Of a stretch of DNA of 64,000 nt, positions 4,451 to 19,777 are shown in pieces. The stretch is from an uncultured Rubrobacteraceae bacterium. Lineage in GTDB: Bacteria; Actinomycetota; Rubrobacteria; Rubrobacterales; Rubrobacteraceae. The notes beneath the pieces were generated by a model. It was not told the origin of the DNA, did not search any database, and saw only the letters and a program-made list of their open reading frames with translations. Numbering within the stretch: position 1 is the stretch's first letter; every line of letters starts with the position of its first letter. A program made the position numbers and the translations under genes. The DNA lies in contig CADCVH010000001.1 in assembly GCA_902806085.1 (NCBI GenBank), positions 62,001 to 126,000 on the forward strand, read 5' to 3'.

Positions 4451-5029
4451 TTGAGGAAAGTAATGCTTTTGGCGGCCATGCTGGCCATGGTGCTCGCCGC
4501 GGCGGCCCCGGCCTTCGCCCAGGCTGTCATCGAGGACGATGGCGACGACGGTAACACCAACGTTCAGTACGTCGATTGCTCCCAGGTGCAGGCTGCCGCT
4601 GCTGCCCAGGGTCAGTACGGCGACGCGAACGCCGCCGCCGACGACGAGAGCGTCGCGATCGCCAACATCTCGCAGGATCTGGACATCACCCAGAACCAGG
4701 TGAACGCTTGCCTCGGTGGTATCGAGGACAGCAACATCGCGCAGGGTGGCGAGAACGGCGGCGTGATCTTCGACGTCGACGATGATGGTGTGGACGACGA
4801 TGGCGACGGCGCCGTTGACGAGGACGAGGGCAGCGCTTCCGCCTCCGCTTCCGCCTCCGCTTCCGCCTCCGCCGCTGCTGAGGAAGAGGGCAGCGCTTCC
4901 GCCTCCGCCTCCGCCGCTTCCGAGGACGTCGCCGAGCTCCCCGAGACGGGTGGCGCTTCGCTGCTCGCGCTCGGTGCTGGTGCCCTTCTGGTCGCCGGTG
5001 GCCTCGTGGCCCGCAGGATCGTTCGGTAA
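4451..5029 (+). CDS. LPETG-anchored acidic surface protein with Ser-Ala repeats
   Basis: The protein has 192 residues from TTG 4451, chosen because AGGAGG (4437-4442) is 8 bases away; GTG 4445 is only 2 away. A signal peptide ends near APAFAQ. An acidic Asp-rich region follows (VDDDGVDDDGDGAVDEDEG, possibly cation-binding). Then come two blocks of alternating Ser-Ala (about residues 130-160) split by Glu. LPETGG, a hydrophobic helix and an RRIVR tail follow. This is a complete sortase signal, so the protein should be linked to the cell wall. No sortase lies in this window. Confidence 0.88.
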   Translation: MRKVMLLAAMLAMVLAAAAPAFAQAVIEDDGDDGNTNVQYVDCSQVQAAAAAQGQYGDANAAADDESVAIANISQDLDITQNQVNACLGGIEDSNIAQGGENGGVIFDVDDDGVDDDGDGAVDEDEGSASASASASASASAAAEEEGSASASASAASEDVAELPETGGASLLALGAGALLVAGGLVARRIVR

Positions 5030-5055
5030 CTAACTAACCGAACGCAGCATCATAG

Positions 5056-5085
5056 GACGGGCCCCTTCGGGGGCCCGTCTTTTTT
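5056..5085 (+). terminator. intrinsic terminator
   Basis: GACGGGCCCC, loop TTCGG, GGGGCCCGTC, then six T. It ends the surface-protein transcript. Confidence 0.92.
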
Positions 5086-5176: not shown

Positions 5177-5983
5177 TTGAGCGGTTCGATATTCAGAGTT
5201 TCCGTGGGGTTCCTGGTGGGGGTTTTGGCGTTGATGGCCCTGGCGCTCTGCGCGGCGAACTACTACACGGGGGAGCAGCAGCGGCTGGCGGCCGCCGGGG
5301 ACGCGCGGGGCGCGCTCGAGGCCTCGCGGCTGGCGCTCCGGCTCGACCCGTTCGACACCGACGCCCTGGAGGCGCAGGCCCTCACCCTGCAGCAGCAGAG
5401 AAGGTACGAGGAGGCCGCGGCGGCGTTGCGGGAGGCCATAGAGCGTGACCCGAACAACTACCTCCCGTACCTGCTGTTGGGCAACCTGCAGCTCGCCATG
5501 GAAGACCCCGACGCCGCGGTGGAGAGCTACCGGGACGTGCTGGAGCTCAACCCCAAGGCGACCTCGGCCAGCATCTACCTGGCGCAGACCCTCATCGGAC
5601 AGGGCGGGTTGCGGGAGGCCAAAGAGGAGTACCTGAAGCTCGAGAAGGAGGGTAGGATCTCCTACGAGGCGCTCTACAACCTGGGCAGGATCGAGGTCCG
5701 CACCGGCGAGGCCGAGAAGGGCCTCAAGGACATAAAAAGCGCCAGGCGCCAGGCGCGCTCGGACCTCGAGGAGCTTCGAGGGCCGCTGAGAAACCAGCGC
5801 CTGGCCCTCTTGCGGTCCATGGACCTCGCCGTGGCAGACGCGATGGTGGTCGCGGGCCGCGAGTCCCGGGCGCGCGAGATCCTCGCGGACAGCCCCTCGG
5901 AGCAGGCCCCGTCGCTGCTGCAGCTCCTCGACTCGGACCCCGACGCGTACCGCGAGCAGGTGGTGAACAGTGACATCTACTGA
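5177..5983 (+). CDS. TPR-repeat membrane-anchored protein, first gene of the polysaccharide locus
   Basis: The protein has 268 residues, with one N-terminal hydrophobic helix and then about five tetratricopeptide repeats (for example GDARGALEASRLALRLDP and EEAAAALREAIERDPNN). TPR proteins scaffold envelope complexes. Here it overlaps the Wzz-like gene by 14 bases and heads the exopolysaccharide operon, so a role in assembling the export/polymerisation machinery is likely. TTG 5177 is a weak start; the GTG about nine codons later would still include the membrane helix. Confidence 0.75.
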   Translation: MSGSIFRVSVGFLVGVLALMALALCAANYYTGEQQRLAAAGDARGALEASRLALRLDPFDTDALEAQALTLQQQRRYEEAAAALREAIERDPNNYLPYLLLGNLQLAMEDPDAAVESYRDVLELNPKATSASIYLAQTLIGQGGLREAKEEYLKLEKEGRISYEALYNLGRIEVRTGEAEKGLKDIKSARRQARSDLEELRGPLRNQRLALLRSMDLAVADAMVVAGRESRAREILADSPSEQAPSLLQLLDSDPDAYREQVVNSDIY

Positions 5984-6701
5984 CCGGCGGGGTTGGCAGG
6001 ACGGCCGCAGGGACGCCGCCTCGCTTGCCGAGATCCTGCACGTGTTGAAGGGCCGGCGGTTGCTGGTCGTCGGCGCGGTGCTGGTGCTGGCGGGGGTCGC
6101 GCTGCTCCTCGGGCTCTTCAGGGAGCCGGCGTACACCGCGGAGGCCGTGGTGGACTTCGCGCCCCGGCAGGCGCCCGAGGACGAGGACGCGCGGCGGGCC
6201 TTCGCGCAGGAGGTGTTTTCGGCCGTCACCTCGCCCGAGGAATTCTCCGAGGGCGTCAAGGAGAGGGTCGCGTGGCGCGGCCCGCCGGAGGAGTTCCGGG
6301 ATCGGCTCGACCCGGGCGTCTCCTCGGTGGGGGGCGGTGTCGAGATGAGGGTCGAGTTCGCCGGGCGGGAGCCCGAGGAGGCGGCCCGCGTCGCCAACGC
6401 TTACGCGCAGATGTTCGCGCTGGAGGCCGGGCGCCTCGGCGACGCGCAGCTCTCCGGGGGGACCGGCGTCGCCGAGGCGCGGGTGATACGCAGGGCCGTT
6501 CCGGCCGGGGGCTCCGGGCCACCGGCCCTGCTCTACGCCGCCGTCGCCGCCGGGCTGGGGCTCCTCGTCGGGGGGGGCGCCGCGCTCTCGCTGGAGGGAA
6601 AGGCCGGCGGGTGGCGCGACGCCCGCGACGCCGAGGTGACCCTCAGGGCCCCGGTGCTCGGGTCCATACCGGACTACTCCCCTGCCGAGAACGAGGGCTG
6701 A
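5970..6701 (+). CDS. Wzz-type polysaccharide chain-length/co-polymerase protein
   Basis: The protein has 243 residues. The layout is that of a polysaccharide co-polymerase: a cytoplasmic start, a first membrane helix (about 25-50), an external domain of about 130 residues, then a second helix (about 180-203) and a short cytoplasmic tail. It partners the Wzy-like polymerase and the CpsD-like ATPase that follow, setting chain length in related systems. GTG 5970 overlaps the TPR gene by 14 bases, suggesting translational coupling. Confidence 0.75.
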   Translation: MTSTDRRGWQDGRRDAASLAEILHVLKGRRLLVVGAVLVLAGVALLLGLFREPAYTAEAVVDFAPRQAPEDEDARRAFAQEVFSAVTSPEEFSEGVKERVAWRGPPEEFRDRLDPGVSSVGGGVEMRVEFAGREPEEAARVANAYAQMFALEAGRLGDAQLSGGTGVAEARVIRRAVPAGGSGPPALLYAAVAAGLGLLVGGGAALSLEGKAGGWRDARDAEVTLRAPVLGSIPDYSPAENEG

Positions 6702-6702
6702 G

Positions 6703-7335
6703 GTGGGCCTGGAGGCCGTCAGCGGGGGCGGCGTGCGGTCGCTGCTCGACGCCGGCTCGCCCGTCAGGCCCCACTACGAGGACCTGGCCGAAAAGCTGCT
6801 CTCCCTGGAGGGTGTCCGCAGCCTGGTGGTCACGAGCCCGCAGGCCGGGGCGGGGCGCACGAGCGTCTGCGTCGGCCTCGCGGGCGCCGTGGCCGGCATG
6901 GGCCGGCGGGCCGCCATCGTGGACTGCAACCTCGGGGACCCTCAACTTCACCGGGTGCTCGGCGAGCCGAACTTCGTTGGCCTCACCAGCGGCCTCGAAG
7001 GCGACAAGCCCCTAGAGCACTACGGCCACGAGGTGGCGCCGGGCCTGCTGGTCGTGCCGACCGGGCTCGTGCCCCCGGACCCCGCCTCCCGCCTCGAGGA
7101 CGAGGGCCTCGTGGGCGCCGTGCGCTCGCTCGAAGAGGGCCGGGACCTCGTGGTTATAGACGGGCCCGTCGCGGGCGGGGTTCTTGCCTCCCCGAACCTC
7201 TCCGGCGGCTTCGACGGCCTGCTGCTCGTCGTGCACGCCTCCCGGACGCCGAAGAGCCTGGCCCGCGAGACCACCGACGACCTCCTTGAGGCGGGTACGA
7301 ACCTGCTCGGGGTGGTGTTGAACGGGTGCTCGTGA
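6703..7335 (+). CDS. CpsD/BY-kinase-like P-loop ATPase, with altered Walker A
   Basis: The protein has 210 residues. Order of motifs: Walker A-like SPQAGAGRTS (residues 45-54), Walker A'-like AAIVDCNLGDP, and Walker B DLVVIDGP. This matches the cytoplasmic ATPase that works with Wzz proteins. Two things are odd. The Walker A lysine is arginine (R52), and there is no C-terminal tyrosine cluster. It may be a non-kinase partner or a weakened ATPase. It starts at GTG 6703, one base after the stop of the Wzz-like gene. Confidence 0.78.
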   Translation: MGLEAVSGGGVRSLLDAGSPVRPHYEDLAEKLLSLEGVRSLVVTSPQAGAGRTSVCVGLAGAVAGMGRRAAIVDCNLGDPQLHRVLGEPNFVGLTSGLEGDKPLEHYGHEVAPGLLVVPTGLVPPDPASRLEDEGLVGAVRSLEEGRDLVVIDGPVAGGVLASPNLSGGFDGLLLVVHASRTPKSLARETTDDLLEAGTNLLGVVLNGCS

Positions 7336-7360
7336 GCGACTCCGTGGCGGGGGGCCCCGC

Positions 7361-9109
7361 GTGAGGGGGGTCGAGACGGCCAGGAACCGGCTCTTCGGCG
7401 CGGACCGCAAGGAGGGCGGGGAGAGGGGGCGGCGTCCCGGACGTCTGCTCGTCGCCTTCAAGGCCTTCGCCGTGCTCGCGCTCGTCGGCGCGACCGTCTT
7501 CGGGCTCATGAGCGCCGGGCTCTACGAAGACGAGCTGTGGCTGCCGGTGGCCGCCAGCGTGCTGGTGCTGCTCTTCACGACCGTGCTCGCGCGCGGCTTC
7601 TACGGCGGGGTGTCGCGGGAGGGGTGGGTCCTGATCTCGCTCCTCGCCCTCCTCGTCCTCGTGAAGGGGCTCTCCATGATCTGGACGATAAGCGAGACGG
7701 AGACTATAAAGGAGGCCTTGCGGGCCTCGATGTACCTGGCGGCCTTCGCCGTCGCCCTGGCCGTGGACGTCACCGTGCCGCGCCTCGGGTGGGCGTTGGT
7801 GGTCTCCATGGCGGTGTTGCTTGGCGCGTTCCGGGAGACCTCCTACTGGTTCGCCCTGCTCCTGCTGCTCCTGGCGGCCGTCGTCGGGGCGAGCGCCTTC
7901 GCCCGGGGCGGCCTGCCCGGACACCGGCAGGTGGGCCCCCTGGTGGACGGCCTCGGCCTGGCCGTGGGCGCGGTGGCGGGATACGGGCTCCTGCAGAAAG
8001 CCTACCCGCAGGACTACGAGATCACGTCCATAGACGGTTACAGGGTGGACTCCACTTTGGGATACCCGAACACGGCGGCCGCCGTCCTCGGCATGGGGGC
8101 GCTGCTCGCGCTCTCGCGGATGACCGCGCTGCGCAACCCCCTCTGGCGGGGGCTCTACGCCGCGCTCGTGCTCGGCTCCCTGGTCACGCTCTACCTCACC
8201 CTCTCCCGCGGCGGCATCTGGTCCTTCGGGGTGGGCCTCGGCGTCCTCTTCGCGCTCGGCAACAACCGCCTGCAGATGCTCGCCAACTTTCTCCTCGTCT
8301 GCGCCCCCGGCGCCTGGCTCTGGTGGCGGATGCAAGACCTCGGGGCGCTCCTGAACCCCAGCGCGCCCGTGCAAGAGAAGGTCGCCGACGGGCTCGCCTT
8401 CCGGAACGACCTGATCCTGGCCCTCTTCGTCGCCTTCGTGCTGCAGGCGGCCTACGCCCTCTTCGTCTCCCGCTACGAGCTGACCTCTATAGCGAGGCGC
8501 TACGTCGGCCTCGCGGTCGGAGCCCTCGGGGCCCTGGCGGCGGCGGCGCTCGCGGTGGCGGTGGTGGCGGGGTACGGCGGGATCGGCCGGGCCGCCCGCG
8601 CGATCTTCAGCAACCCGGACCAGGAGGGAAACGCCGCCCAGAGGCTCGTCTCCCTGGGCGTGGGCTTCAGGGCCGAGTACTGGAAGGTGGGCTGGAACGC
8701 CTGGCTGGAACGCCCCTTCACCGGGACCGGGGCTGGCACTTTCCAGTACACGTGGCTCGAAAACCGGCAGGGCATCCAGGGCGTAAAGCAGATCCACAAC
8801 CTCTACCTGGAGCAGGGCACCGAGACCGGGATCGTCGCCTTCCTGGCCCTTCTGGCCTTCGCGGGCTTTCTCCTCTTCTACACCGGCAGGGCCGCCTGGC
8901 GGTACCGGCCGGAGGGCGAGGGCAGGCTCCTGCTCGCCGGGCTCGTGGCGGCCGTGACGGTCTACCTGGTCTCCTCGATTTTCGAGTGGCACTGGTACCT
9001 GCCGGGCTCGACGCTCTTCTTCTTCGTGGTCGCCGCCGTCGCCGTGCGGCTGGCCCGGGCCGAAGACCCCCCGAAGACCGCCGCCGACGACGAGACCGTC
9101 CCCGGCTGA
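7361..9109 (+). CDS. O-antigen polymerase/ligase family protein (Wzy-like)
   Basis: The 582-residue protein has about 12 membrane helices. The Wzy_C hallmark TLSRGGIW lies near residue 285. The large external loop carries ERPFTGTGAGTFQYTW and IHNLYLEQGTETGIV, typical of O-antigen polymerases and ligases. It joins repeat units at the outer face of the membrane. Its position after the Wzz/CpsD-like pair argues for polymerase rather than ligase. GTG 7361 is the most upstream start with a sensible cytoplasmic N-terminus. Confidence 0.85.
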   Translation: MRGVETARNRLFGADRKEGGERGRRPGRLLVAFKAFAVLALVGATVFGLMSAGLYEDELWLPVAASVLVLLFTTVLARGFYGGVSREGWVLISLLALLVLVKGLSMIWTISETETIKEALRASMYLAAFAVALAVDVTVPRLGWALVVSMAVLLGAFRETSYWFALLLLLLAAVVGASAFARGGLPGHRQVGPLVDGLGLAVGAVAGYGLLQKAYPQDYEITSIDGYRVDSTLGYPNTAAAVLGMGALLALSRMTALRNPLWRGLYAALVLGSLVTLYLTLSRGGIWSFGVGLGVLFALGNNRLQMLANFLLVCAPGAWLWWRMQDLGALLNPSAPVQEKVADGLAFRNDLILALFVAFVLQAAYALFVSRYELTSIARRYVGLAVGALGALAAAALAVAVVAGYGGIGRAARAIFSNPDQEGNAAQRLVSLGVGFRAEYWKVGWNAWLERPFTGTGAGTFQYTWLENRQGIQGVKQIHNLYLEQGTETGIVAFLALLAFAGFLLFYTGRAAWRYRPEGEGRLLLAGLVAAVTVYLVSSIFEWHWYLPGSTLFFFVVAAVAVRLARAEDPPKTAADDETVPG

Positions 9110-9132
9110 GGGAGGCCGCCGCGGGCCCCTCG

Positions 9133-10053
9133 GTGGTCGGGGACCGTCTCGGGAGGCTCCTGGGCGGCCTCTACCTCGACCTGGCGGGGGACCACCGCGG
9201 CTCCGTCTTTCTCGCCGGAACCGGGCGCAGCGGGACGACGTGGCTGGGCGGCCTCGTGAACCACGACCGGCGCTACCGCTACGTCTTCGAGCCGTTTCAC
9301 CCCGGAAAGGTGGAGGCTTTCGGCGGTTTCCTGAGCAAGCAGTACCTCAGGCCCGGCGATCGGCGGGAGGAGTTCCTGGATCCGGCCCGGCGGGTCCTCT
9401 CCGGTGGGATCCGGAACGGCTGGACGGACCGGGGCGGCGCCCTCCTGGCCCGGCGGCGGCTCGTCAAGGACATAAGGGCGAACCTGCTGCTCGGCTGGAT
9501 GGCCGAAAACTTCCCCGGCATGCCCATCGTGCTGCTCATGCGCCACCCGGGCGCCGTCGTCTCTTCCCGGCTCGCGCTCGGGTGGCGCGACAACCTAATG
9601 GAGACGATGGGCCAGGGGGATCTCGTAGGGGACCACCTCCTGCCGATGGAGAGCGAGATCCTGGCCGCCCGCGACCCCTTCGAGCGGCACCTCTTTCTCT
9701 GGTGCATAGACAACTACGTGCCCCTCAGGCAATTCCCGCCCGGCGGCATCCACCTCGCTTTTTACGAGAACTTGCTCCTGGACCCGGAGCCCGAACTGCG
9801 CCGCCTGTTCGCTTTTCTCGGCCAGGACTTCGACGGGAGGGTCCTTCGCCGGGTAGGCCGGGCTTCCCCGACGAGCCGGCGAGACGCCTCCCCGGGCCAT
9901 CCGGTCGACGGGTGGCCTCGTGGGGTGAAGGGACGCCGGCTGGAGAGGACCCTGGAGATCCTGGGCCTCTTCGGCCTGGACCGCGTCTACGGCGAGGGGC
10001 CCGTGCCCGACCCCTCCGGCGCCCGCGCCCTCATGGCCGAAATCCGGGGGTAG
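9133..10053 (+). CDS. PAPS-dependent sulfotransferase
   Basis: The protein has 306 residues from GTG 9133. The phosphosulfate-binding loop GTGRSGTTWL lies about 25 residues in, and the 3'-phosphate site MRHPGAVVSSR near residue 137. YENLL and LFAFLG motifs follow. It would transfer sulfate from PAPS to a sugar hydroxyl, on a lipid-linked repeat unit if cytoplasmic. The region upstream in the same frame belongs to the polymerase gene in another frame. With the second sulfotransferase at 18842 it implies a sulfated polysaccharide. Confidence 0.86.
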   Translation: MVGDRLGRLLGGLYLDLAGDHRGSVFLAGTGRSGTTWLGGLVNHDRRYRYVFEPFHPGKVEAFGGFLSKQYLRPGDRREEFLDPARRVLSGGIRNGWTDRGGALLARRRLVKDIRANLLLGWMAENFPGMPIVLLMRHPGAVVSSRLALGWRDNLMETMGQGDLVGDHLLPMESEILAARDPFERHLFLWCIDNYVPLRQFPPGGIHLAFYENLLLDPEPELRRLFAFLGQDFDGRVLRRVGRASPTSRRDASPGHPVDGWPRGVKGRRLERTLEILGLFGLDRVYGEGPVPDPSGARALMAEIRG

Positions 10054-10057
10054 GCGG

Positions 10058-11188
10058 GTGCCAAGGCCTCCCGTCGTTATCCTCTCCGGCGTACGCTGGG
10101 GCTTTCTCTGGCAGCGTCACCAAACGCTCGCCACGCTCTTCGACCGGGCCGGATACCCCACCGTCTTCGTGGAGACGACCGGCCTCGCCAACCCACGACC
10201 GTCAGCCTTCCTCAGGGTCGCAGCGAGGCTGCGTAAGGCCGGGTCCGGGGCCAAACGCCAGGGCGACGGGCCCCGGGTCTATTCCCCGCTCGCGCTGCCG
10301 CCGACCCTCCGGGTCTTCCGGGCGGCGAACCGCAGGCTTCTGCTGCCGCGGGTCGCGCGGGACCTCCGCAAACTCCTGGGCGAGAGGGCCATCGTGGTGG
10401 CCTATCCGCCGACCCGCACGACGCTCGACCTGATCCCGCGCCTCGACCCCCGCCTCGTCCTCTACGACTGCGCGGACGACTACGAGCACTTCCCCGGCGC
10501 CCCGAAAGACATAGCGGCCACCGAGGAGGAGCTCTTCGCGCGGGCCGACCTCGTCTCCTGCACCTCCGGACCCTTGCTCGAGAAGGCCAGGCGCACGAGG
10601 CCCGACGCATTTCGGAGCGGCCCGGCGGTGGACTACGGGCGGTTCGCCGCCCTGCGGGAACAGCCCCGCGCCTTGCCGGTGCGCACGGTGTGCTTCTTCG
10701 GGCACCTGGGCCGGGAGCGTCTGGACTTCGACGTCCTGCGGGCGGTCGCCCGCGCGGGCTTCCGGGTGAGGTTGTTGGGGGACGCGGGACGCGCGGAGAA
10801 GGGTTTCCTCGAAAGACCGAACGTGGAGTACCGTGGGGAGGTCCCCCATGGGCGGTTGCCGGCGGCACTCGCGGGCGTGGACGCCTTCGTGTTGCCGTAC
10901 AAAGCGGGCGGCCTGACGCGCGCGATCTCGCCCGCCAAGACCTACGAGTGCCTCGCCACCGGCCGGCCCATCGTGGCGTCCCCGCTCCCGGACCTGGGGG
11001 AGATCTCGGACCACGTGTACCTGGAGAGTCATCCCGAAGGCTTCGTAAAAGCCCTGCGGAACCTGCCGCACACGGAGACCGATGAGAGAGCCCGGGCCAG
11101 GACCGAACTGGCGCGGCAGAACTCGTGGGAAGCGCGGTTTCGGGAGCTGGAGGAGGGCGTGCTGCGCGCTTTGGAAGGCCGGACGTGA
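10058..11188 (+). CDS. GT-B glycosyltransferase (GT1/GT4-like)
   Basis: The protein has 376 residues. The N-terminal Rossmann half begins VVILSGVRWGFLWQRHQTLA, as in glycosyltransferases of surface-polymer loci. The C-terminal half has YRGEVPHGRLPAALAGVDAFVLPY and SPAKTYECLATGRPIVAS, the nucleotide-sugar end of GT-B enzymes. It should add one sugar to the lipid-linked repeat unit on the cytoplasmic face. The start is GTG 10058, four bases after the sulfotransferase stop; its stop overlaps the next start as GTGA. Confidence 0.87.
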   Translation: MPRPPVVILSGVRWGFLWQRHQTLATLFDRAGYPTVFVETTGLANPRPSAFLRVAARLRKAGSGAKRQGDGPRVYSPLALPPTLRVFRAANRRLLLPRVARDLRKLLGERAIVVAYPPTRTTLDLIPRLDPRLVLYDCADDYEHFPGAPKDIAATEEELFARADLVSCTSGPLLEKARRTRPDAFRSGPAVDYGRFAALREQPRALPVRTVCFFGHLGRERLDFDVLRAVARAGFRVRLLGDAGRAEKGFLERPNVEYRGEVPHGRLPAALAGVDAFVLPYKAGGLTRAISPAKTYECLATGRPIVASPLPDLGEISDHVYLESHPEGFVKALRNLPHTETDERARARTELARQNSWEARFRELEEGVLRALEGRT

Positions 11189-11943
11189 GCCGTCCCGGCC
11201 GGGTCGAGGTGCTCGGGGTCGGGGTGGACCCGGCGACCGTGGACGGGTTGCACGCGGAGATACGGCGCCTCGTCCGCCGCCGGGGCGGGGTCGTGCTCAA
11301 CGCCAACGCCCACTGCCTCAACCTATGTTACAGAGACCCCGCGCTGCGCCGGTTCTTCGGCGCGGCCGACCTCGTCTTCTGCGACGGGGCAGGCGTGAAG
11401 CTGGCGGCGAGGATGCTTGGGGGGCGACTTCCCGAGAGGATCACCTACGCCGACTGGCTCCCGCGCCTCGCGGACTTCGCCGAAGAGGAAGGCCTCTCGC
11501 TCTTCTTTTTGGGCGCCCGGCCCGGCGTGGCCGAGAGGGCCGCGAAGAGGCTCCGGGCGACGCGCCCGGCCCTGAAAGTCGTCGGCGTCCGGCACGGCTA
11601 CTTTGACCGGGACGCGGACGGCGCGGAGAACGGGGTCGTGGTGGCGGAGATCAACGCCGCCAGGCCGGACGTGCTCCTCCTCGGCCTCGGCATGCCCCTC
11701 CAGGAACGTTGGCTGATGGAGAACCGGCGCAGGCTGGACGTCGGCGTCGCCCTCACGGGCGGGGCCGTCTTCGATTACGCTTCGGGCGGGCTGCGTCGCG
11801 GCCCACGCCTCCTCACGGACAACGGCCTGGAATGGCTCGCGCGGCTCCTCGTGGAGCCCCGGCGGCTGTGGCGGCGGTACCTGCTCGGCAACCCGCTCTT
11901 CCTGTTGCGCGTGCTGCGCCAGCGCCTGGGGGGCCCCCGGTGA
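11185..11943 (+). CDS. WecG/TagA/CpsF family glycosyltransferase (GT26)
   Basis: The protein has 252 residues from GTG 11185, which overlaps the previous stop by four bases. Family motifs: LNANAHCLNL, FCDGAGVKLAAR, YADWLP, LFFLGARPGVAERAA, LLLGLGMPLQERW and ALTGGAVFDYASG. The family transfers ManNAc(A)-type sugars to undecaprenyl-linked acceptors. It is probably the second transferase of the repeat unit. The basic C-terminal helix (RLLVEPRRLWRRYLL) is the usual membrane-association segment. Confidence 0.9.
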   Translation: MSRPGRVEVLGVGVDPATVDGLHAEIRRLVRRRGGVVLNANAHCLNLCYRDPALRRFFGAADLVFCDGAGVKLAARMLGGRLPERITYADWLPRLADFAEEEGLSLFFLGARPGVAERAAKRLRATRPALKVVGVRHGYFDRDADGAENGVVVAEINAARPDVLLLGLGMPLQERWLMENRRRLDVGVALTGGAVFDYASGGLRRGPRLLTDNGLEWLARLLVEPRRLWRRYLLGNPLFLLRVLRQRLGGPR

Positions 11944-12100
11944 CGGAGCGTCCATAGAGAGGGAGGGCCGAACATATCCAACGTCCCCGCGCCACGTCTC
12001 TACAAGATATTGCAAGTGTAAGACGACACCCTTAATCATTTTGCGATTTTGTTCGATAATACGTTTATAGCAAAAGAGACTTTACCTTGAGGGGGGAAAG

Positions 12101-13552
12101 TTGCGACACGGAGTTTTGGCCTTGTTGACCCTGACGTTGGCGACAGCCATGGGGGCGGTTGTTTCCGTGGCCGGCGTGCAGGCCCAGCAGGCAACGGACG
12201 GGACCGCCACCCAGAAGACGGGGGGGGATGCGGTCGGGGCCTCGGTCGTGCACCCCGCGAAATGGGTCGTCGAGCGCGAGCCTTACACCTTCGACAAGAC
12301 TTACGGTTACACGCTGTGGTACCCGGACACCGAGGAGGCCCACGATCACGGAGGGAGACCCGCGCTTAGGGTCGCGCTGGCCTACGACCTCCAGCCCGGG
12401 GACATCGAAGACGAGGTCCGCGCCACGCTCGCCGACTACCCGGACCTGCCGGTGGGGCGGCAGGAGGTGAAGGTCGCCAGGAGACACGAGGGCGTGGCGG
12501 TCGGCCCCATCCCGGGCAGCACGCCGTTTACGCGGATCTACGTGCCGGTCAACGGTCGGGTGTACAGCATCAACGTATACTCCGAGGAGCCGGGCGAGGA
12601 GGGCCTCGACTCGGACGACAAGGCCTCGCTCTCCGACGTTCGCTTCGAGCGGCCGTCGCGGTCGGTGGGCGCGCTCGGGTTGCCGAAGGCCAACTCGTCA
12701 GAGGAGCTGTACCTCTCCGGCGCCGAGGCGCGCGCGGTGCAACGCCAGGAGGACGGCAAGGTGCCCGCGGAGTCCGCCACCCGGTACTCCGTTGAGGACG
12801 GGGCTCCGGCCACGGCCGCGCGGACGACGACGAAGGCCGGCGGCGAGGCGCGTATCACAGAGGGTTGCTGGCGGGCCGACCCAGGCTTCTACGTGCAGAC
12901 CCAGCACGGGTACGGTGCCAACGGCTCCAGCAAAGACGGCATACCTACCGGGTGGAGCCAGATCGGCATCCCCAACTTCTGGGGCCAGTACACCCACGGC
13001 AACCTCGGCTACGGTCGGTGCACCGAACCCTACTACGCCAACGACAAGTACGCCGTGGACTACCCGCTCAACAGAGGGAACTACGTCTTCTCGCCCTTCA
13101 AGTGCGGGCGCGTGACCTACGCCGGCCGCAACCAGACCCATGCGGACTACGGGATCTTCGTCTCGATCCGGGCGTGCAACGGCAAGTACGTCAACCTTTC
13201 GGCGCACCTGGATGCCCTCGGGGTCAACGGCGGGGACAGGTTGAGCAGGGGTGACGCGGTGACGAAGGACACCGTGATCGGCTACGCCGGCAACACCGGC
13301 GGGGGGTCCATCCCGGTCGGCAGGGTGCACCTCCACACGGCATTCTACCGCTACCCGAAGGCGAACCCGGACGGCTCGCCCTACGGGGGCGCGGGTTTGC
13401 AGGTTACCCGCAACCGCTACGTCGGCACCGCGGCGCGCAGGAGCGGCTTCAAGGTCGACTCACACGTCTACGACTACGCGAAGGTCACGCCCAGAAAGGC
13501 CGCCTGCCGTGAGGGAATACGGTGTGGGGAGCAATACCTGGTAAGCAACTGA
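12101..13552 (+). CDS. secreted M23-like protein with incomplete zinc site
   Basis: The 483-residue protein has a signal peptide (about 1-28). A first domain (about 45-190) is of unknown type, and a C-terminal domain (about 260-460) resembles M23/LytM peptidases. Of the M23 motifs, SAHLD and the HLH pair (H410, H412) are there, and D320 in KYAVD. The first zinc ligand of HxxxD is a lysine (K316). Either the zinc site is lost or the domain only binds cell wall. TTG 12101 follows GGGGGGAAAG. The 157 bases upstream are AT-rich and probably hold its promoter. Confidence 0.72.
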   Translation: MRHGVLALLTLTLATAMGAVVSVAGVQAQQATDGTATQKTGGDAVGASVVHPAKWVVEREPYTFDKTYGYTLWYPDTEEAHDHGGRPALRVALAYDLQPGDIEDEVRATLADYPDLPVGRQEVKVARRHEGVAVGPIPGSTPFTRIYVPVNGRVYSINVYSEEPGEEGLDSDDKASLSDVRFERPSRSVGALGLPKANSSEELYLSGAEARAVQRQEDGKVPAESATRYSVEDGAPATAARTTTKAGGEARITEGCWRADPGFYVQTQHGYGANGSSKDGIPTGWSQIGIPNFWGQYTHGNLGYGRCTEPYYANDKYAVDYPLNRGNYVFSPFKCGRVTYAGRNQTHADYGIFVSIRACNGKYVNLSAHLDALGVNGGDRLSRGDAVTKDTVIGYAGNTGGGSIPVGRVHLHTAFYRYPKANPDGSPYGGAGLQVTRNRYVGTAARRSGFKVDSHVYDYAKVTPRKAACREGIRCGEQYLVSN

Positions 13553-13582
13553 ATCACGGGTTTCTCTAAAAGGACCGCACGC

Positions 13583-13606
13583 GGGGCGGACGGTATACTC
13601 CGCCCC
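13583..13606 (+). promoter_or_regulatory. -10 box inside a GC-rich inverted repeat
   Basis: GGGGCGG (13583-13589) and CCGCCCC (13600-13606) flank a loop that contains TATACT (13594-13599). The arrangement suggests an operator over the promoter of the sugar transferase that starts at 13618. Confidence 0.5.
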
Positions 13607-13617
13607 GGTAGGCCCTC

Positions 13618-15006
13618 GTGCGAATCCTGAAAAACATCCCGAAGAGGCTCCTAGGTTTGAAGACCTTGCGCCGTACCTTGAGCGTGGTGGTCCTCGCGCT
13701 TCTGGACGGGGCCGCGCTCCTCTTCGGGTTGCTCGGGGCGGTGCGGCTCCTGGACGGCGCCGGGGGAGACCGGATGCTCTCGCTCTTCCCGCTCCTGATC
13801 GGCGGTTGGGTTGTGGTGTGCGCCGCCTTCCGGCTCTACGACCGGGCGCCGGTAAGGCGCAACCCGGGGGCTTTGATCGGGTCGTCCGCCTGCTGGGCGG
13901 GCCTCGCGCTCCTGGGGGCAGCGGTCTACCCGGAGAGCGGCCTGGGCCTCGCCGGCGTTCTCCTCTCCGCCCTTCTGGCCTTCGTCTTCGCCGGCGCCCT
14001 GAGGTTCCTCTTCGAGTGGGGTGTGGCGCGGGTCTACCGCCGCGGTCTCGGGCAGACGCCCGTGCTGGTGGCCGGCCGGGAGCAAGACCGGGCGCGGGTC
14101 TCGCGGACGATGGGGCGGGCGGGCGGGGCCTACGTCCTGGCGGGCGAGGTGGACCTTGTGGGTAGTGGCGCGGACCTGGCGGCGCTTCGGGCCGCCCTGG
14201 ACAGGACGGGCGCCCGCATCGTCGTGCTCGCCGGGGCCGAGCGGCTGCCGGACGACGAGCTTCTCGAGCTACTGCACTCCGTACGATTGCGCGGTGTGCC
14301 CCTGCGCGTGGCGCCCGGCGCCCTCGCCCTGATGCGGGGCCGGACCATCCTGTCCGAGGGTATGGGTATGCCGCTGCTAGAAGTCCGCTACCCCCGGCTC
14401 GACAACTCCCAGCGCGCCCTCAAGCGCGCCCTCGACGTCGCCGTCTCGGTGGCCGGCCTACTGGTGATCTCGCCGCTACTCCTCGCCATCGCGCTGGCCG
14501 TCCGGCTCGACTCCCCGGGCCCGGTGCTTTTCAGGCAGAAGCGGGTGGGGGCGGACGAGAAGACCTTCGTCTGCCTCATGTTCCGGTCCATGCGGGCCGA
14601 CGCCGAGGGGCTGCAAGAGGAGATGGAGGAGATGAACGAGGCCGAGGGGCCGGTCTTCAAGATCAGGCACGATCCCCGCGTGACCCGCGTTGGCAGGTCC
14701 CTGCGGCGCTGGAGCCTGGACGAGTTGCCGCAGCTCGTCAACGTGCTCAAGGGAGAGATGAGCCTCGTGGGGCCGAGGCCGCTGCCGGTTCGGGATTTCT
14801 TGAGGATGGAGGAGGAGCACAAGCGCAGGCTCGGCGCGGTGCCGGGGATGACCGGGTACTGGCAGATCAGTGGCCGCAGCGACCTCTCGTTCGAGGACAT
14901 GGTCCGCCTCGACCTCTACTACATGGAGAACTGGTCGCTCTCTTTCGACCTCAAGATCATACTGAAGACCCTCGGCGCCGTCCGGCGCCGGGAAGGAGCG
15001 TACTAG
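13618..15006 (+). CDS. polyprenyl-phosphate sugar-1-phosphate transferase (WbaP/WcaJ type)
   Basis: The 462-residue protein has four N-terminal membrane helices, a nucleotide-binding-like middle domain, and a fifth helix at KRALDVAVSVAGLLVISP. The PF02397 catalytic domain follows: SPGPVLFRQKRVG, FKIRHDPRVTRVGR, SLDELPQLVNVLKGEMSLVG and GYWQISGR. It starts repeat-unit synthesis by moving a hexose-1-phosphate to undecaprenyl phosphate at the inner face. It starts with GTG 13618 and has its own promoter region. Confidence 0.93.
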   Translation: MRILKNIPKRLLGLKTLRRTLSVVVLALLDGAALLFGLLGAVRLLDGAGGDRMLSLFPLLIGGWVVVCAAFRLYDRAPVRRNPGALIGSSACWAGLALLGAAVYPESGLGLAGVLLSALLAFVFAGALRFLFEWGVARVYRRGLGQTPVLVAGREQDRARVSRTMGRAGGAYVLAGEVDLVGSGADLAALRAALDRTGARIVVLAGAERLPDDELLELLHSVRLRGVPLRVAPGALALMRGRTILSEGMGMPLLEVRYPRLDNSQRALKRALDVAVSVAGLLVISPLLLAIALAVRLDSPGPVLFRQKRVGADEKTFVCLMFRSMRADAEGLQEEMEEMNEAEGPVFKIRHDPRVTRVGRSLRRWSLDELPQLVNVLKGEMSLVGPRPLPVRDFLRMEEEHKRRLGAVPGMTGYWQISGRSDLSFEDMVRLDLYYMENWSLSFDLKIILKTLGAVRRREGAY

Positions 15007-15052
15007 CCGTCAGCACGGCCCGCGCGATGGCGACGGCCTCACAAATTCTCCA

Positions 15053-15092
15053 CGGCGGTTCGCGGGATACTCCCGGTCTTCGCGAACCGCCG
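15053..15092 (+). terminator. perfect 12-bp inverted repeat after the sugar transferase
   Basis: CGGCGGTTCGCG (15053-15064) pairs with CGCGAACCGCCG (15081-15092). A weak T run follows. It probably ends the sugar-transferase transcript or works for both converging genes. Confidence 0.6.
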
Positions 15093-15105
15093 CGGGCTTT
15101 CCGGC

Positions 15106-15147
15106 CCGACGCGCCTAACGCCGACGCGCCTAACGCCGACGCGCTAC
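15106..15147. repeat. 15-bp tandem repeat, about 2.7 copies
   Basis: CCGACGCGCCTAACG occurs at 15106-15120 and 15121-15135, followed by a partial copy. It lies just past the stop of the minus-strand gene at 15171. Confidence 0.75.
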
Positions 15148-15170
15148 TTCATGAAGGGGCCTATACGCCT

Positions 15171-15530
15171 CTACTGTGAGACGTCGAGGGCTCCGGCCGT
15201 GGCGAAGTCGCCGCCGAAGAAGGTGCTCTCGGCGACCACGTCGTTCTCGACCGGGCCCACGCCGGCCACGGCGAAGTTGGAATTCAGCGGCTCGTTTACG
15301 CCGAGGGCGAAGGGGTTCGGCGGGAAGGGGTTGCCGGCCACCGCTATGTCGGTGCCGAGGGGCAGGGTCGGGGCGGGCCCGCCGGCCAGAGCCGGGCTAC
15401 CGGCAACCGTTATGTTCTCCGAGATGGGGCCCGCCACAAGGCCGCCCACCGATACCGTGTCCGCCGAGGCCGGGGCGGCCATCGCCAGCACCATCGCCGC
15501 GGTCGCCGCTATCGCCATCAGTCTCTTCAT
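15171..15530 (-). CDS. small secreted protein with degenerate VAG repeats
   Basis: The protein has 119 residues. A signal peptide (MKRLMAIAATAAMVLAMAAPASA) is followed by about five short units of the form (I/F)xVAGxP: LVAGPI, ITVAGSP, IAVAGNP, FAVAGVG and FATAG, spaced 15-25 residues. It has no cysteine and little charge, so a small beta-structured surface or matrix protein is likely; I recognise no family. ATG 15530 has GGAGGAGCG just upstream. It lies between the sugar transferase and sulfatase-like genes on the opposite strand. Confidence 0.7.
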   Translation of the reverse strand: MKRLMAIAATAAMVLAMAAPASADTVSVGGLVAGPISENITVAGSPALAGGPAPTLPLGTDIAVAGNPFPPNPFALGVNEPLNSNFAVAGVGPVENDVVAESTFFGGDFATAGALDVSQ

Positions 15531-15744
15531 CGCTCCTCCAGACGTTTTTCGGCGGACGATCCTACACCGCCCGACTCCCTCCCTACAGTCTAAACACGAT
15601 GGATCGTAACAATCAATACAGAATTCGGCGTATTTAGAGGCGGGGTTCGGGGCGTCGCGGCCATCGGGGCGGTTTGATCTAGAATAGGCCGCGGCGCACC
15701 GGTCGAGATCCGGACGCGAAGAATCTTTTTTCGGAGGTAAGAGC

Positions 15745-17076
15745 ATGAACGTTATCCTGGTCATACTGGACTCCTTGCGCAAAGATCACCTCGGCGTCTA
15801 CGGCAGCGACCGCGTCAAGACCCCGAACCTGGATGCCCTCGCCGACGAGAGCTTCCGGTTTACCCGGGCCCACCCGGAGTCCCTGCCGACGATCTGCGCC
15901 CGCCGCGCCATCCACACGGGGCTCAGGACCTTCCCGTTCAGGAACAGGGTCGAGCTGCCGGGGGAGACCTTCCAGCCGGCCGGCTGGCAGCCCATCCCGG
16001 AGGACCAGGTCACGCTCTCGGAGACGCTCGTCGCCCAGGAGTACAACACGGTCCTCTTCTCGGACACCCAGCCGATGTTCCACCCGTCCATGAACTTCCA
16101 GCGCGGCTTCCGGGTCTTTGACTGGCTCCGGGGCCAGGAGCGCGACCGTTACCGCCCGAAGTCCCTGGCGCCTGAGGACCTGGTCCAGAAGAACACCGTC
16201 CCGGGCAACGACGAGGGCATGATCAGCAAGGTCCAGCAGTACCTCGCCAACACCCGCGACCGCAAGACCGAGGAAGACTACTTCGCCCCGCGCCTCTTCG
16301 CCCGCGGGATGGACTTTCTGGACCGCTCGGAGGCCGGCCAGCCGTTCTTCCTGGTCCTCGACTCCTTCGACCCCCACGAGCCCTGGGACCCGCCCGAGGA
16401 GTACGCGGGCATGTACTCGGACGGCTACGACGGCCGAGACCCGATCGTCCCGAACTACGGCGGCTCACAGTGGATACAGGACGCCGAGCTCGAAAGGATG
16501 CGCGCCCTGTACGCCGGCGAGGTGACGATGGTGGACCGCTGGTTCGGGCGTTTCATGGAAAAGATGCAGCAGACCGGACGGGCCGACGACACCCTGCTCC
16601 TCGTCATCTCCGACCACGGGGTCGCCCTCGGCGAGCACGGCTTCACCGGCAAGCCCTTCAACGCGCTCTGGCCCGAGCTCACGGACATACCGTTCATGAT
16701 CCGCCACCCCGAAGGCCTCGGCGCCGGAGAGACGAGCGACTTTTTCGCCTCCACCCACGACGTCGCCCCGACCATCCTCGGCCTCCTCGGCCTCCTCCCG
16801 CAGCAGCAGATGGACGGCCAGTACTTGTCCATCCTGATGGAAGGCGGAGACCTGCCACCAAGGGACCACTTCACCCTTGGTTACGCCGACCACGTCTGGG
16901 CCCGCGACGACCGCTACCTCATGTTCTCCCGCACCGACCGCTCCGAGCCCCACCTCTACGACCTCCAGAACGACCCCGGCGCGAACCGGAACCTCGCCGA
17001 CGACGACCCGGACCGGGTCCGCCGCATGTTCGAAGACTACGTCCTCGCCGACGCCGGCGGCTCCCTGGATGGTTAA
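15745..17076 (+). CDS. alkaline-phosphatase-superfamily sulfatase-like hydrolase, Thr at the nucleophile position
   Basis: The 443-residue protein has a sulfatase fold: VILDSLRKDHLGVYG with metal ligand D9, HEPWDPP, and the metal-site VISDHGVALGEHG. The nucleophile region reads PTICARRAIHTG. Aligning R53 and T58-G59 to the CxPxR...TG consensus puts T49 where formylglycine would form, and C51 is out of register. It may therefore use Thr, as phosphatases and phosphotransferases of the superfamily do. No signal peptide is seen. ATG 15745 follows CGGAGGTAAGAGC. Confidence 0.82.
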   Translation: MNVILVILDSLRKDHLGVYGSDRVKTPNLDALADESFRFTRAHPESLPTICARRAIHTGLRTFPFRNRVELPGETFQPAGWQPIPEDQVTLSETLVAQEYNTVLFSDTQPMFHPSMNFQRGFRVFDWLRGQERDRYRPKSLAPEDLVQKNTVPGNDEGMISKVQQYLANTRDRKTEEDYFAPRLFARGMDFLDRSEAGQPFFLVLDSFDPHEPWDPPEEYAGMYSDGYDGRDPIVPNYGGSQWIQDAELERMRALYAGEVTMVDRWFGRFMEKMQQTGRADDTLLLVISDHGVALGEHGFTGKPFNALWPELTDIPFMIRHPEGLGAGETSDFFASTHDVAPTILGLLGLLPQQQMDGQYLSILMEGGDLPPRDHFTLGYADHVWARDDRYLMFSRTDRSEPHLYDLQNDPGANRNLADDDPDRVRRMFEDYVLADAGGSLDG

Positions 17077-17113
17077 GTCCGCCCGCCGGGCTTTTCGTCG
17101 GGACGAAAATCCC

Positions 17114-17119
17114 TATAAT
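17114..17119 (+). promoter_or_regulatory. -10 box (TATAAT) of a leaderless gene
   Basis: It is 8 bases before the flippase GTG at 17128, with no ribosome site between, so the mRNA should start at or next to the start codon. Confidence 0.7.
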
Positions 17120-17127
17120 CTCGTGCC

Positions 17128-18849
17128 GTGAACACCGAAGAAAATCCGAAACGCGACGAGACCGCTGCCGAGGAGCGCGTCGCCGATCCCGGAACCGCGA
17201 CCAACGGGGGGCAAGGCGTCCCGCCCGCGGCCGCGGGAGACGCGCCTTCCGGGGTGCCGGGGGTCGCCGAGACCGATTCGCTCGGTGAAGACAAAGACGA
17301 CTCCTACGTCGCGCGGGTGGCGCGCGGGGCCGGTATCAGCACGGCGGGGCAGGGCATCGGGCGCGTGCTCGGCTACCTCTCCCTGCTCGCCATGGCCCGC
17401 CTGTTCGGGCCCACGGCGCAAGGTTTCTACCAGGCTGGCGTCGCCATCTTGAACGGCGCGCAGATCCTGTCGCGCTTCGGCATGGAGAACGGCGTGGTGC
17501 GCTACGTCGCCCACTACCGGGCCCAGGAGGACACCGCAAGGGTCAAGGGCACGATAATCCAGGCCATCGCGATCACCTTCGCCTTGAGCATGGTCATCTC
17601 GGCGGTCATGATCTTCGGGTCGAGCCTGGAGGTGGTGCAAAACTGGCAGTTCAAGGACTACTCCATGGCGCCGGTGCTCCGGGCCTTCGCGGTCGTTTTG
17701 CCGTTCTTCGTGTTCATGATGATGGTGCTCTGGGCCACGCAGGGGTTCCAAACCGTCACCTACGCCAGCTACGTGCAGCAGATAATCCGTCCCGCGCTGT
17801 TCCTGGCGTTTCTCTTCGTCTTCTACCTGCTCGGCACGAGGACCGTTGGCATCATAGCGGCCTTCGGCATCTCTATGGCGCTGGGCTCCGTGGTCGCCGT
17901 CTACTACCTGTGGAAGCTGTTTCCTGAGGTCTTCGACCGCAGCGTTCCGGCGAAGTACGAGACAAAAGCGTTGTTCAACGTCTCTGTGCCGATGAGCATC
18001 ACCACCGGCGCGCAGTACCTAAACACCTGGTCGGCGGTGCTCGTGCTGGGAATATTCGCGATCGGCCCCCCCGTGGCGGTCTTCGGCACCGCAGCCCGTA
18101 CGGCGACGCTGTCGACCATCGTGCGTTTCGCGTTTTCCGGGATCTTCTCGCCGATGATCTCGAGCTTCTACTCGCGCGGGGAGATGGGGGAGCTCGACCG
18201 GCTGTACAAGGACATATCCCGCTGGATCTTCACGGGCGCGTTCGCCATCTTCTTGCTGCTCGTGCTGCTCTCCTACGAGGTCCTCGCCGTGTTCGGCGAG
18301 AAGTACGTCGAGGGCATAGCGGCCCTGATCATCGTGGCCCTCGCGCAACTCTTCAGTTCCTCGGTCGGCCCGACGCCGCGGATGCTCGCTATGACCGAGA
18401 ATCAGAACGTGGTCATGGTCGCCACTGCTATAGCGGCCATCATCGGGCTCTCCGTCAGCACCGTCCTGATCGTGACCGCGCCCACTCCCGAAGGCAAGAT
18501 CCTGGGCGCCGCTATCGGAATGGCCTCGGGCATCGTCGTGGAGAACGCGGCCACCCTCTTGGCCGTCCGTCGACGCCTCGGCTTCTGGCCGTACAACCTC
18601 GCGTGGCTGAAGCCGCTGCTGGCCGGCCTGGCCGCCGCCGCGCTAGCCTTCCTGGTAAACCTGCTCCTGCCCGTGCCGGTGCTCGTCACCATAGCGGTCG
18701 TCGGGGCCGTCTTCGGCATCGCCTACCTCGCCTTGCTCTTACTCTTCGGCCTATCGGAGACGGACAAAGAGTTCCTCGGCGCTTTCTGGAACGTCGCCAA
18801 ACGTCGCCTCCCGGCCCGCTTCCGCGGGGGGGGAGAGAGCCGTGGATAA
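17128..18849 (+). CDS. polysaccharide flippase (Wzx/MATE-like, MVF superfamily)
   Basis: The 573-residue protein has a hydrophilic acidic N-terminus of about 60 residues, then 14 predicted membrane helices with the signature GRVLGYLSLLAMARLFGPTA at helix 1. It matches oligosaccharide flippases that turn undecaprenyl-linked repeat units to the outer face. The 60-residue N-terminal tail is longer than usual. Its stop overlaps the start of the sulfotransferase by eight bases. Confidence 0.9.
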   Translation: MNTEENPKRDETAAEERVADPGTATNGGQGVPPAAAGDAPSGVPGVAETDSLGEDKDDSYVARVARGAGISTAGQGIGRVLGYLSLLAMARLFGPTAQGFYQAGVAILNGAQILSRFGMENGVVRYVAHYRAQEDTARVKGTIIQAIAITFALSMVISAVMIFGSSLEVVQNWQFKDYSMAPVLRAFAVVLPFFVFMMMVLWATQGFQTVTYASYVQQIIRPALFLAFLFVFYLLGTRTVGIIAAFGISMALGSVVAVYYLWKLFPEVFDRSVPAKYETKALFNVSVPMSITTGAQYLNTWSAVLVLGIFAIGPPVAVFGTAARTATLSTIVRFAFSGIFSPMISSFYSRGEMGELDRLYKDISRWIFTGAFAIFLLLVLLSYEVLAVFGEKYVEGIAALIIVALAQLFSSSVGPTPRMLAMTENQNVVMVATAIAAIIGLSVSTVLIVTAPTPEGKILGAAIGMASGIVVENAATLLAVRRRLGFWPYNLAWLKPLLAGLAAAALAFLVNLLLPVPVLVTIAVVGAVFGIAYLALLLLFGLSETDKEFLGAFWNVAKRRLPARFRGGGESRG

Positions 18850-19777
18850 CGCCCCCGTAAAGGTCCTCTACGTCGCCGGCCTCGGGCGGAGCGGGAGCAC
18901 GATCCTCGCGAACACTTTGGGCCAGGTCGAAGGCTTCTTCTCCGGCGGCGAGCTGAACTTTATCTGGAAGCACGCCCTCATAGAGAACCGGCTCTGCGGC
19001 TGCGGCAGGCCCGCCCGCGAGTGCCCGTTCTGGGGCCCCGTCTTCGACGGCGAGTTCGGCGGTCAGAGCGAGTCCCTCGCCCGCGAGATGATGCGCCTCC
19101 AGTACTCCGGCGCCCGCACCCGCCACATCCCGATGATGCTGACGGAAGGCGGCAGGGAGAAGATCCGGGCGCGCCTCGGCAAGTTCCTGGACAACACGGG
19201 GCGCCTCTACGGGGCCATACGCTCGGTCTCCGGCAGCCGCGTGGTGGTGGACACCTCCAAGGAGCCGGCCTACGGTTACGCCCTCGGGATGGTCCCCGGC
19301 ATCGACCTGCGCGTCCTGCACCTGGTCCGCGACCCGCGGGCCGCCGCCTACTCCTGGGCGAAGAAGAAGCGCCAGCCCGACAGCGCCGACCGCGAGTTCA
19401 TGCACCAGAAGACCCCGGCCCAGAGCGCCGTCCTCTGGGACGCCTGGAACGCCGCCATAGAGGCCCTCTGGCGCCCGACCCCGGCCCGGTACCTCCGCCT
19501 CCGCTACGAGGACTTTATCGCCGACCCGCGGGCCAGCTTCGAGGCCATGCTGAGGCTAGTCGGGGAGGAGGGCGCCCGGTTGCCGCTCGTGGGCGACCGG
19601 GAGGTCAAGCTCGGCATCAGCCACACCGTTTCGGGCAACCCTAACCGCTTCGACACCGGTGCCGTCGAGCTCAAACAGGACCAGGCCTGGACGGAGAAGA
19701 TGAACCCGCGCGACCAGAGGCTCGTCACGGCCCTAACCCTTCCGCTTCTCAAGCGCTACCATTACCCGCTGGCCTAG
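18842..19777 (+). CDS. PAPS-dependent sulfotransferase (second in the locus)
   Basis: The 311-residue protein has a 5'-phosphosulfate loop GLGRSGSTILANTL about 11 residues in, and a 3'-phosphate site LVRDPRAAAYSW near residue 160. RYEDFIADP and the GISHTVSGNP loop follow. A Cys cluster (CGCGRPARECPFW) resembles other bacterial sulfotransferases of this type. GTG 18842 overlaps the flippase gene, so the two are likely co-translated. It differs from the enzyme at 9133 and probably sulfates a different position or sugar. Confidence 0.86.
   Translation: MDNAPVKVLYVAGLGRSGSTILANTLGQVEGFFSGGELNFIWKHALIENRLCGCGRPARECPFWGPVFDGEFGGQSESLAREMMRLQYSGARTRHIPMMLTEGGREKIRARLGKFLDNTGRLYGAIRSVSGSRVVVDTSKEPAYGYALGMVPGIDLRVLHLVRDPRAAAYSWAKKKRQPDSADREFMHQKTPAQSAVLWDAWNAAIEALWRPTPARYLRLRYEDFIADPRASFEAMLRLVGEEGARLPLVGDREVKLGISHTVSGNPNRFDTGAVELKQDQAWTEKMNPRDQRLVTALTLPLLKRYHYPLA

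Follow-up and report, generated by a model that had tools for sequence, protein, structure and literature searches.

Our analysis of a Rubrobacteraceae actinobacterium identified a complete Wzx/Wzy exopolysaccharide locus in which the assembly genes are accompanied by two PAPS-type sulfotransferases and a protein of the sulfatase fold. The locus occupies positions 5177–19777 of what we call the window, the whole 64,000-nucleotide stretch that was analysed (positions 62001–126000 of contig C1 in a 4.41 Mb draft genome, G000). We interpret it as a conserved Rubrobacteraceae operon group that would make a sulfated surface polymer and in which the sulfatase-fold protein, here called SULF, is predicted to be a Thr-nucleophile enzyme other than a sulfatase; we give this reading a probability of about 0.7.

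A Wzx/Wzy locus conserved in the Rubrobacteraceae

Genes were identified by Pfam and NCBIfam profile matches. The named locus genes all lie on the plus strand, in the order TPR-Wzz-CpsD-Wzy-ST1-GT4-WecG-PGT-SULF-Wzx-ST2, with an M23-peptidase-like protein between WecG and PGT. A TPR protein bearing a single hydrophobic segment near its N-terminus (5177–5983; Pfam TPR), the first gene of the conserved block across the family, is followed by a Wzz-type co-polymerase with two hydrophobic segments (5970–6701; PF02706), a CpsD/BY-kinase-like ATPase homologue (6703–7335; best match TIGR01007, below cut-off) and a Wzy polymerase of the Wzy_C/O-antigen ligase family with about 13 hydrophobic segments (7361–9109; PF04932, E = 2.3e-13). 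Next come the 306-residue sulfotransferase ST1 (9133–10053; PF13469 (Sulfotransfer_3), E = 9.7e-10), a GT4-type glycosyltransferase (10058–11188; PF13692/PF13524, with TuaH as a weak best NCBIfam match) and a WecG/TagA/CpsF (GT26) glycosyltransferase (11185–11943; PF03808, E = 2.5e-56; best match NF041872 EpsA, below cut-off). ST1 probably starts at the GTG at 9133 and forms the 3' part of a long open reading frame (7537–10053) that overlaps wzy in another frame. From TPR to WecG the genes are separated by -14, 1, 25, 23, 4 and -4 bases. Downstream lie PGT, the initiating polyprenyl-phosphate hexose-1-phosphate transferase of the WbaP/WcaJ type (13618–15006; PF02397, E = 1.5e-64; TIGR03025 above cut-off), SULF, a member of the alkaline phosphatase superfamily (15745–17076; PF00884, E = 1.4e-43), a Wzx flippase with about 11 hydrophobic segments (17128–18849; PF01943) and the second sulfotransferase, ST2 (18842–19777; PF13469, E = 1.4e-12), with gaps of 51 and -8 bases from SULF to ST2.

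An initiating phosphoglycosyl transferase, Wzx, Wzy and a Wzz/PCP protein are thus all present, and the profiles bear out the full set listed in the first-pass annotation (initiating transferase, two later transferases, co-polymerase, polymerase and flippase). The ATPase named in that set stood only in part. A CpsD-like homologue exists, but its P-loop Lys is Arg here and Arg or Cys in all 9 aligned homologues, which makes the label "ATPase" doubtful. The protein also lacks the C-terminal Tyr cluster and so does not have the features of a functional CpsD/BY-kinase partner; such a partner is not needed by every Wzx/Wzy system.

Three genes in this range were absent from the earlier annotation, namely the TPR gene, the secreted M23-peptidase-like protein (12101–13552; PF01551) and a small secreted open reading frame in antisense orientation (15171–15530). 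The M23-peptidase-like slot varies in the family, being taken by a C39-like peptidase in G010 and G025. The wzx gene (17128–18849) is a recombinant allele. A search for Rfam features in the locus found none, and the repeats detected there are low-identity matches. Just 5' of the locus, a terminator-like hairpin of 12 pairs (5054–5081, plus strand) was recognized as a consensus match only. Further upstream, a small secreted acidic, Ser-Ala-rich protein (4463–5029, plus strand) ends in LPETGG, a hydrophobic segment and an Arg tail, which is a sortase-type signal. LPETGG-type secreted proteins also directly precede the locus in G024, G014 (tandem copies), G010, G012 and G028, and the protein may have a role in the locus as a candidate associated gene.

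Comparison of the locus across related genomes, suggested in the first-pass annotation, was carried out by mapping the window proteins onto relatives. The same gene order, with insertions and losses, was found in ten of them (G024, G022, G014, G015, G010, G011, G012, G025, G026 and G027). Because most family members retain this order with some variation, the locus is a core feature of the Rubrobacteraceae and not a strain-specific capsule, and orthologues in the same order across the family exclude a chance arrangement. An ST2 relative is present in 28 of 39 family genomes and in 21 of the 22 high-quality ones, and ST1 homologues (E ≤ 1e-10) were found in 11/13 sampled Rubrobacteraceae versus 2/136 other Actinomycetota. 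Two genomes, G028 and G036, have neither ST1 nor SULF in the part of the locus read, but other sulfotransferase-like or duplicated ST2 genes occur there.

Two sulfotransferases and the supply of PAPS

The claim of two different PAPS-type sulfotransferases was confirmed, as both proteins match PF13469 with their PAPS-binding motifs intact. The 5'-PSB and 3'-PB motifs read GxxRSGT and RHPxAVxxSR in ST1, where they are invariant in 11 homologues, and GRSGST and RDPRAAAYSW in ST2, where they are nearly invariant among homologues. The ST1 and ST2 profiles match different solved structures, very weakly in the case of ST1. Since ST1 sits within the wzy-GT operon (23 bases 3' of wzy and 4 bases 5' of GT4) and the start of ST2 overlaps wzx by 8 bases, both sulfotransferases are embedded in assembly operons.

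PAPS synthesis genes, which were to be looked for in the same genome, are present on contigs other than that of the locus, in a draft with 4.55% estimated contamination. An assimilation operon on contig C106 encodes a PAPS/APS reductase (CysH), sulfite reductase, a ferredoxin-like protein, ATP sulfurylase (Sat) and APS kinase (CysC). A second CysC lies on contig C79; its neighbours include a Cys-type sulfatase and a protein of 644 residues in which a Sulfotransfer_5 domain is fused to a complete ATP sulfurylase. APS kinase occurs in 37/39 family genomes.

We also considered that the product of the locus is an ordinary polysaccharide without sulfate and that ST1 and ST2 modify another acceptor (a glycolipid, a protein or a small molecule), their genes being merely sited in the operon. 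Roughly a dozen additional Sulfotransfer_3 genes are present in the host genome, which is in line with this idea; PAPS therefore also serves other products, and its supply is no specific evidence for the locus. The AlphaFold2 model of ST2 (pLDDT 93.7) has a sulfotransferase fold, and the nearest solved structures, tyrosylprotein and polyketide sulfotransferases at 13–20% identity, likewise fit this idea. In a tree of 67 ST2 relatives built by maximum likelihood, members from Nocardia, Dyella and others, at about 40% identity, form a distinct 12-row clade (support 100/100). Their conserved neighbours, as read from sequence, are an aminotransferase, an MFS protein, an SDR, a methyltransferase and an NRPS, a neighbourhood that looks like a small-molecule cluster, and the notion of a family devoted to polysaccharides only was rejected on this ground. 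The same tree argues against transferring this role to the locus, as the core Rubrobacteraceae ST2 proteins form one separate clade of 24 rows (support 99/94). A grouping of the sulfotransferases with small-molecule types, which the first-pass annotation had named as counting against its prediction, was thus not seen for ST2. Throughout the family, moreover, ST1 and ST2 tightly adjoin wzy/GT4 and wzx, so that we regard action on another acceptor alone as unlikely.

Because the nearest ST2 structures are non-glycan enzymes and the wider family is partly of the small-molecule kind, the assignment of a carbohydrate acceptor draws on the gene neighbours, from which a glycan is the best inference for both enzymes. 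ST2 relatives occur in 19/136 sampled Actinomycetota outside the Rubrobacteraceae, and those of several families have homologues of Wzx, PGT or CpsD nearby. As the locus is core to the family, PAPS supply is present and the ST2 clade stands apart from that of Nocardia, a sulfated polymer is the best prediction from the locus. A literature search on polysaccharide sulfation in Rubrobacter returned nothing relevant.

The working model that follows deduces substrates, sulfation order, polymer structure and the reaction of the Thr-type enzyme from the genes. PGT would place the first sugar-phosphate onto undecaprenyl phosphate, and WecG and GT4 would extend it by one or two sugars. In the cytoplasm, ST1 and ST2 would transfer sulfate from PAPS onto the lipid-linked repeat at two positions, after which Wzx would flip it and Wzy polymerize it, presumably regulated by Wzz together with the degenerate CpsD protein. 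From the gene counts a short repeat is plausible, a di- or trisaccharide with up to two sulfates, if no outside enzyme joins. The counts do not fix the exact repeat, because the locus in relatives carries extra sugar-nucleotide and other genes, including a UDP-glucose dehydrogenase and an epimerase.

A Thr-type enzyme of the sulfatase fold

SULF had been described as a sulfatase-like hydrolase; the PF00884 fold is indeed present, but the sulfatase reading fails on the catalytic residue. Its AlphaFold2 model (pLDDT 91.5) matches arylsulfatases and phosphonate monoester hydrolases over about 350–400 residues (Z 31–37, rmsd 2.4–4.4, among the matches listed), and SULF shares with these S1 and S1_0 enzymes the whole-chain fold, the metal ligands (D9, D290 and H291, fitting the D, D, N/H pattern of the alkaline phosphatase superfamily), Arg53 and Lys303; H211 is kept as well. 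It differs from them in its nucleophile, which is Thr where theirs is Cys or Ser. The formylglycine motif C/S-x-P-x-R reads T-I-C-A-R in SULF, with T49 at the nucleophile position, and T-[IL]-[CPN]-A-R in all syntenic copies. In an alignment of 30 homologues, 27 have Thr in this column and 3, all non-syntenic paralogues, have Ser; Cys does not occur, and every copy at the locus has Thr. The closest Foldseek match to the model, among the matches listed, is an E. faecium arylsulfatase whose catalytic C61 becomes formylglycine (PMC12421950). Thr-bearing PF00884 proteins have been noted in a sulfatase classification, according to which threonine oxidation would not yield formylglycine (PMC5066984). 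The replacement of the formylglycine Cys/Ser by Thr thus indicates that SULF is not a formylglycine sulfatase.

That SULF is a genuine sulfatase serving to edit or recycle the polymer sulfate is highly improbable for the same reason, even though the PF00884 match, the arylsulfatase-like fold and the FGE-like genes and Cys-type sulfatase elsewhere in the genome (L088) would fit it. SULF also has no signal peptide in the window genus, which further speaks against this role. In place of the Lys of the sulfatase GKxH motif SULF has D107, which would also count against a sulfatase, but this was rejected as a diagnostic, as Cys-type relatives from Haladaptatus, Rhizobium and Serratia share the Asp; only Thr49 was used as evidence against a formylglycine sulfatase.

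The SULF clade (E ≤ 1e-50) is confined to the Rubrobacteraceae among 296 sampled Actinomycetota, where it is found in 22 genomes. One 50% homologue, with the Thr and a Tat signal, lies near IS elements on a Martelella plasmid. In most of the family the N-terminus of SULF is of the twin-arginine type and mostly lipoprotein-like, and 35–155 bases further on follows a protein of about 200 residues that contains about five hydrophobic segments and matches no Pfam family. This membrane partner stands beside all syntenic exported copies tested. Both signal peptide and partner are missing in the window genus, a clade of five tree rows (100/100), and from a second SULF copy in G012. Reading the N-termini assigned signal losses to the window genus and to single copies from G012 and C108, with G001 as a possible further case; an earlier count of 7 label changes on the tree, based on a Tat regular expression, was revised, as three copies have Tat-like N-termini. 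In the window, the ATG at 15745 is closely preceded by GGAGG, a strong Shine-Dalgarno sequence, as is the SULF start in two relatives, and no lost signal peptide was found in the other frames upstream of 15745. Since signal and partner were lost together in a few evolutionary events, the partner may serve the exported form of SULF.

Several activities could be reconciled with these features. LtaS and EptA have active sites of a Thr plus one metal, which the T49, D9, D290 and H291 arrangement of SULF parallels, and an LtaS/EptA-like transferase that adds a phospho-substituent (e.g. phosphoglycerol or phosphoethanolamine) to the glycan would also suit the export with a roughly 5-TM partner in most relatives and the weak NCBIfam matches to PEtN transferases. 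These family scores are far under the cut-offs (18–24 bits versus 500 or more), the closest folds are those of arylsulfatases and phosphonate monoester hydrolases, SULF has no hydrophobic segment and hence lacks the multi-pass membrane domain expected at the N-terminus of such a transferase, and a cytoplasmic SULF, as predicted for the window genus, could not reach outer-leaflet phospholipid donors. No LtaS or EptA fold was among the matches listed for the model, which is not evidence of differing folds. On balance we consider this activity possible but doubtful. Somewhat less probable is a new glycan-tailoring transferase that would move a phospho- or sulfo-group via a Thr ester on the polymer and not hydrolyse it. 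That SULF is a catalytically dead scaffold in the window genus is suggested by the loss of signal peptide and partner and by the H110-to-P change in this genus; it is quite unlikely, given the invariant metal ligands, Arg53, H211 and K303, an identity of about 90% between species of the genus and the strong ribosome-binding site. We favor an active Thr-nucleophile enzyme that would not use formylglycine to remove sulfate and that most likely, at the glycan or its carrier, would cleave a phosphate diester or transfer a phospho-group. It would work extracellularly as a Tat lipoprotein in most Rubrobacteraceae and in the cytoplasm in the window genus.

Relation to known sulfated polysaccharide systems

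Wzx/Wzy clusters with two sulfotransferases are already known, from synechan, for which sulfation is proven, and from Actinoplanes missouriensis wps-1, for which it is predicted in a 2026 report (PMC8205485, PMC13390465). The synechan (xss) locus of Synechocystis PCC 6803 resembles the present one in combining Wzx, Wzy and a co-polymerase with two sulfotransferases of distinct subfamilies. It differs in having 8 glycosyltransferases, which with its 2 sulfotransferases correspond to 8 sugars and 2 sulfates, as against 2 plus the initiating one here, in its location on a cyanobacterial megaplasmid with its own regulators, in lacking a sulfatase-fold gene among the named xss genes and in its chemically proven product, that of the Rubrobacteraceae locus being a prediction (PMC8205485). 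Closer in host, wps-1 is an actinomycete cluster whose two sulfotransferases are annotated to different families (Gal/GlcNAc/GalNAc and heparan sulfate sulfotransferases), with a gene of the ATP sulfurylase/APS kinase family nearby; it is sporangium-specific in one species and contains other modifying genes (GH26, methyltransferase and kinase-like), with no sulfatase-fold gene in the description available (PMC13390465). What is new here is the conservation across a family and the lineage-specific Thr-type enzyme, which is absent from the available synechan and wps-1 descriptions.

Sulfated bacterial exopolysaccharides are said in recent papers to be confined to cyanobacteria, with actinomycetes merely suspected (PMC8205485, PMC13390465). 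The sulfated capsule of Vibrio sp. KMM 8419, with a structure determined by NMR, is an exception; it shares with our locus PAPS genes and sulfotransferases for a surface polysaccharide but is assembled through an ABC transporter in a Gram-negative marine host (PMC11641403). A polysaccharide cluster on a Sinorhizobium megaplasmid (CP140910) carries an ST2 homologue (34%) near Wzz, an O-antigen ligase family protein, GT4 and a second sulfotransferase, which favors a glycan acceptor for ST2; it belongs to a Gram-negative host, and the 19 kb read there carry no annotated gene for a sulfatase fold.

A whole actinobacterial family with such a locus, including cultured species noted for desiccation and radiation tolerance, makes actinomycete sulfation directly testable. 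The conserved Thr in place of Cys shows that the label "sulfatase" can be misleading for genes in glycan loci, and SULF offers a defined target for learning the role of Thr-type PF00884 members. As for the statement that such polymers are rare among actinomycetes, it holds for published products, which are few, but not for the genes: Sulfotransfer_3 was found in 57/149 sampled Actinomycetota genomes (44/136 outside the Rubrobacteraceae), apart from the ST2 relatives near polysaccharide assembly genes described above.

Variable genes and recombination inside the locus

The DNA of the flippase gene wzx (window 17128-18849) is approximately 89% identical to that of G007, a relative from another genus (stretch L038), versus approximately 69% to that of the same-genus relative G024. 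The flanking genes for ST2, a sulfotransferase, and SULF, the sulfatase-fold protein with Thr at its formylglycine nucleophile position, show the reverse pattern of identity to these two genomes. Because wzx is closer to G007 and its neighbors are not, it seems that wzx alone was swapped by recombination. Between the genes for WecG, a GT26 transferase, and PGT, the initiating transferase (window 12101-13552), lies a secreted hydrolase that differs by genus, being M23-like in the window and in G024 and a C39-like peptidase in G010 and G025. An antisense ORF of 119 aa with a signal-peptide-like start (window 15171-15530, minus strand) lies between PGT and SULF and is apparently missing in G024.

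The CpsD-like protein and an upstream LPETGG protein

In the alignment of the CpsD-like protein (window 6703-7335), the P-loop lysine is missing, with Arg or Cys in 9/9 homologues, and the protein has no Tyr cluster. The absence of both features suggests a degenerate, non-hydrolysing partner of Wzz. Directly upstream of the locus, a small secreted protein (window 4463-5029) ends in LPETGG, a hydrophobic segment and an Arg tail; relatives carry the same protein, some in tandem copies, and it is possibly a wall-anchored carrier.

Sulfotransferases and SULF-like proteins elsewhere

Sulfotransfer_3, the Pfam family of ST1 and ST2, has about 13 matches genome-wide at E<=1e-8 (on contigs C100, C102, C118, C129 and others), several of them in tandem arrays, and members of the Rubrobacteraceae have up to 20. 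On contig C79 (114820-116751, minus strand; L088:12318-14252), near an APS kinase gene, a 644-residue fusion protein carries a Sulfotransfer_5 domain at its N-terminus, followed by a complete ATP sulfurylase. Among 149 Actinomycetota sampled, matches to both halves were found in Rubrobacteraceae only, in some as separate neighboring genes.

A Tat-exported SULF paralogue on contig C115 (within the region L092:8981-17455) has the same membrane partner as exported SULF. From its sequence, we read a nearby epimerase, which Pfam assigns as Epimerase only, as resembling UDP-sulfoquinovose synthase (SqdB). In a second, distant set of proteins that resemble the sulfatase family PF00884 and are encoded in the same genome (contigs C73, C80 and C111; L096, L094 and L097), the nucleophile position is likewise Thr (TMPAR). 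Plasmid pMM259 of the alphaproteobacterium Martelella mediterranea (L163) carries a Thr-type SULF homologue of 50% identity with a Tat signal; its location near IS elements in this host suggests that Thr-type SULF moved between phyla.
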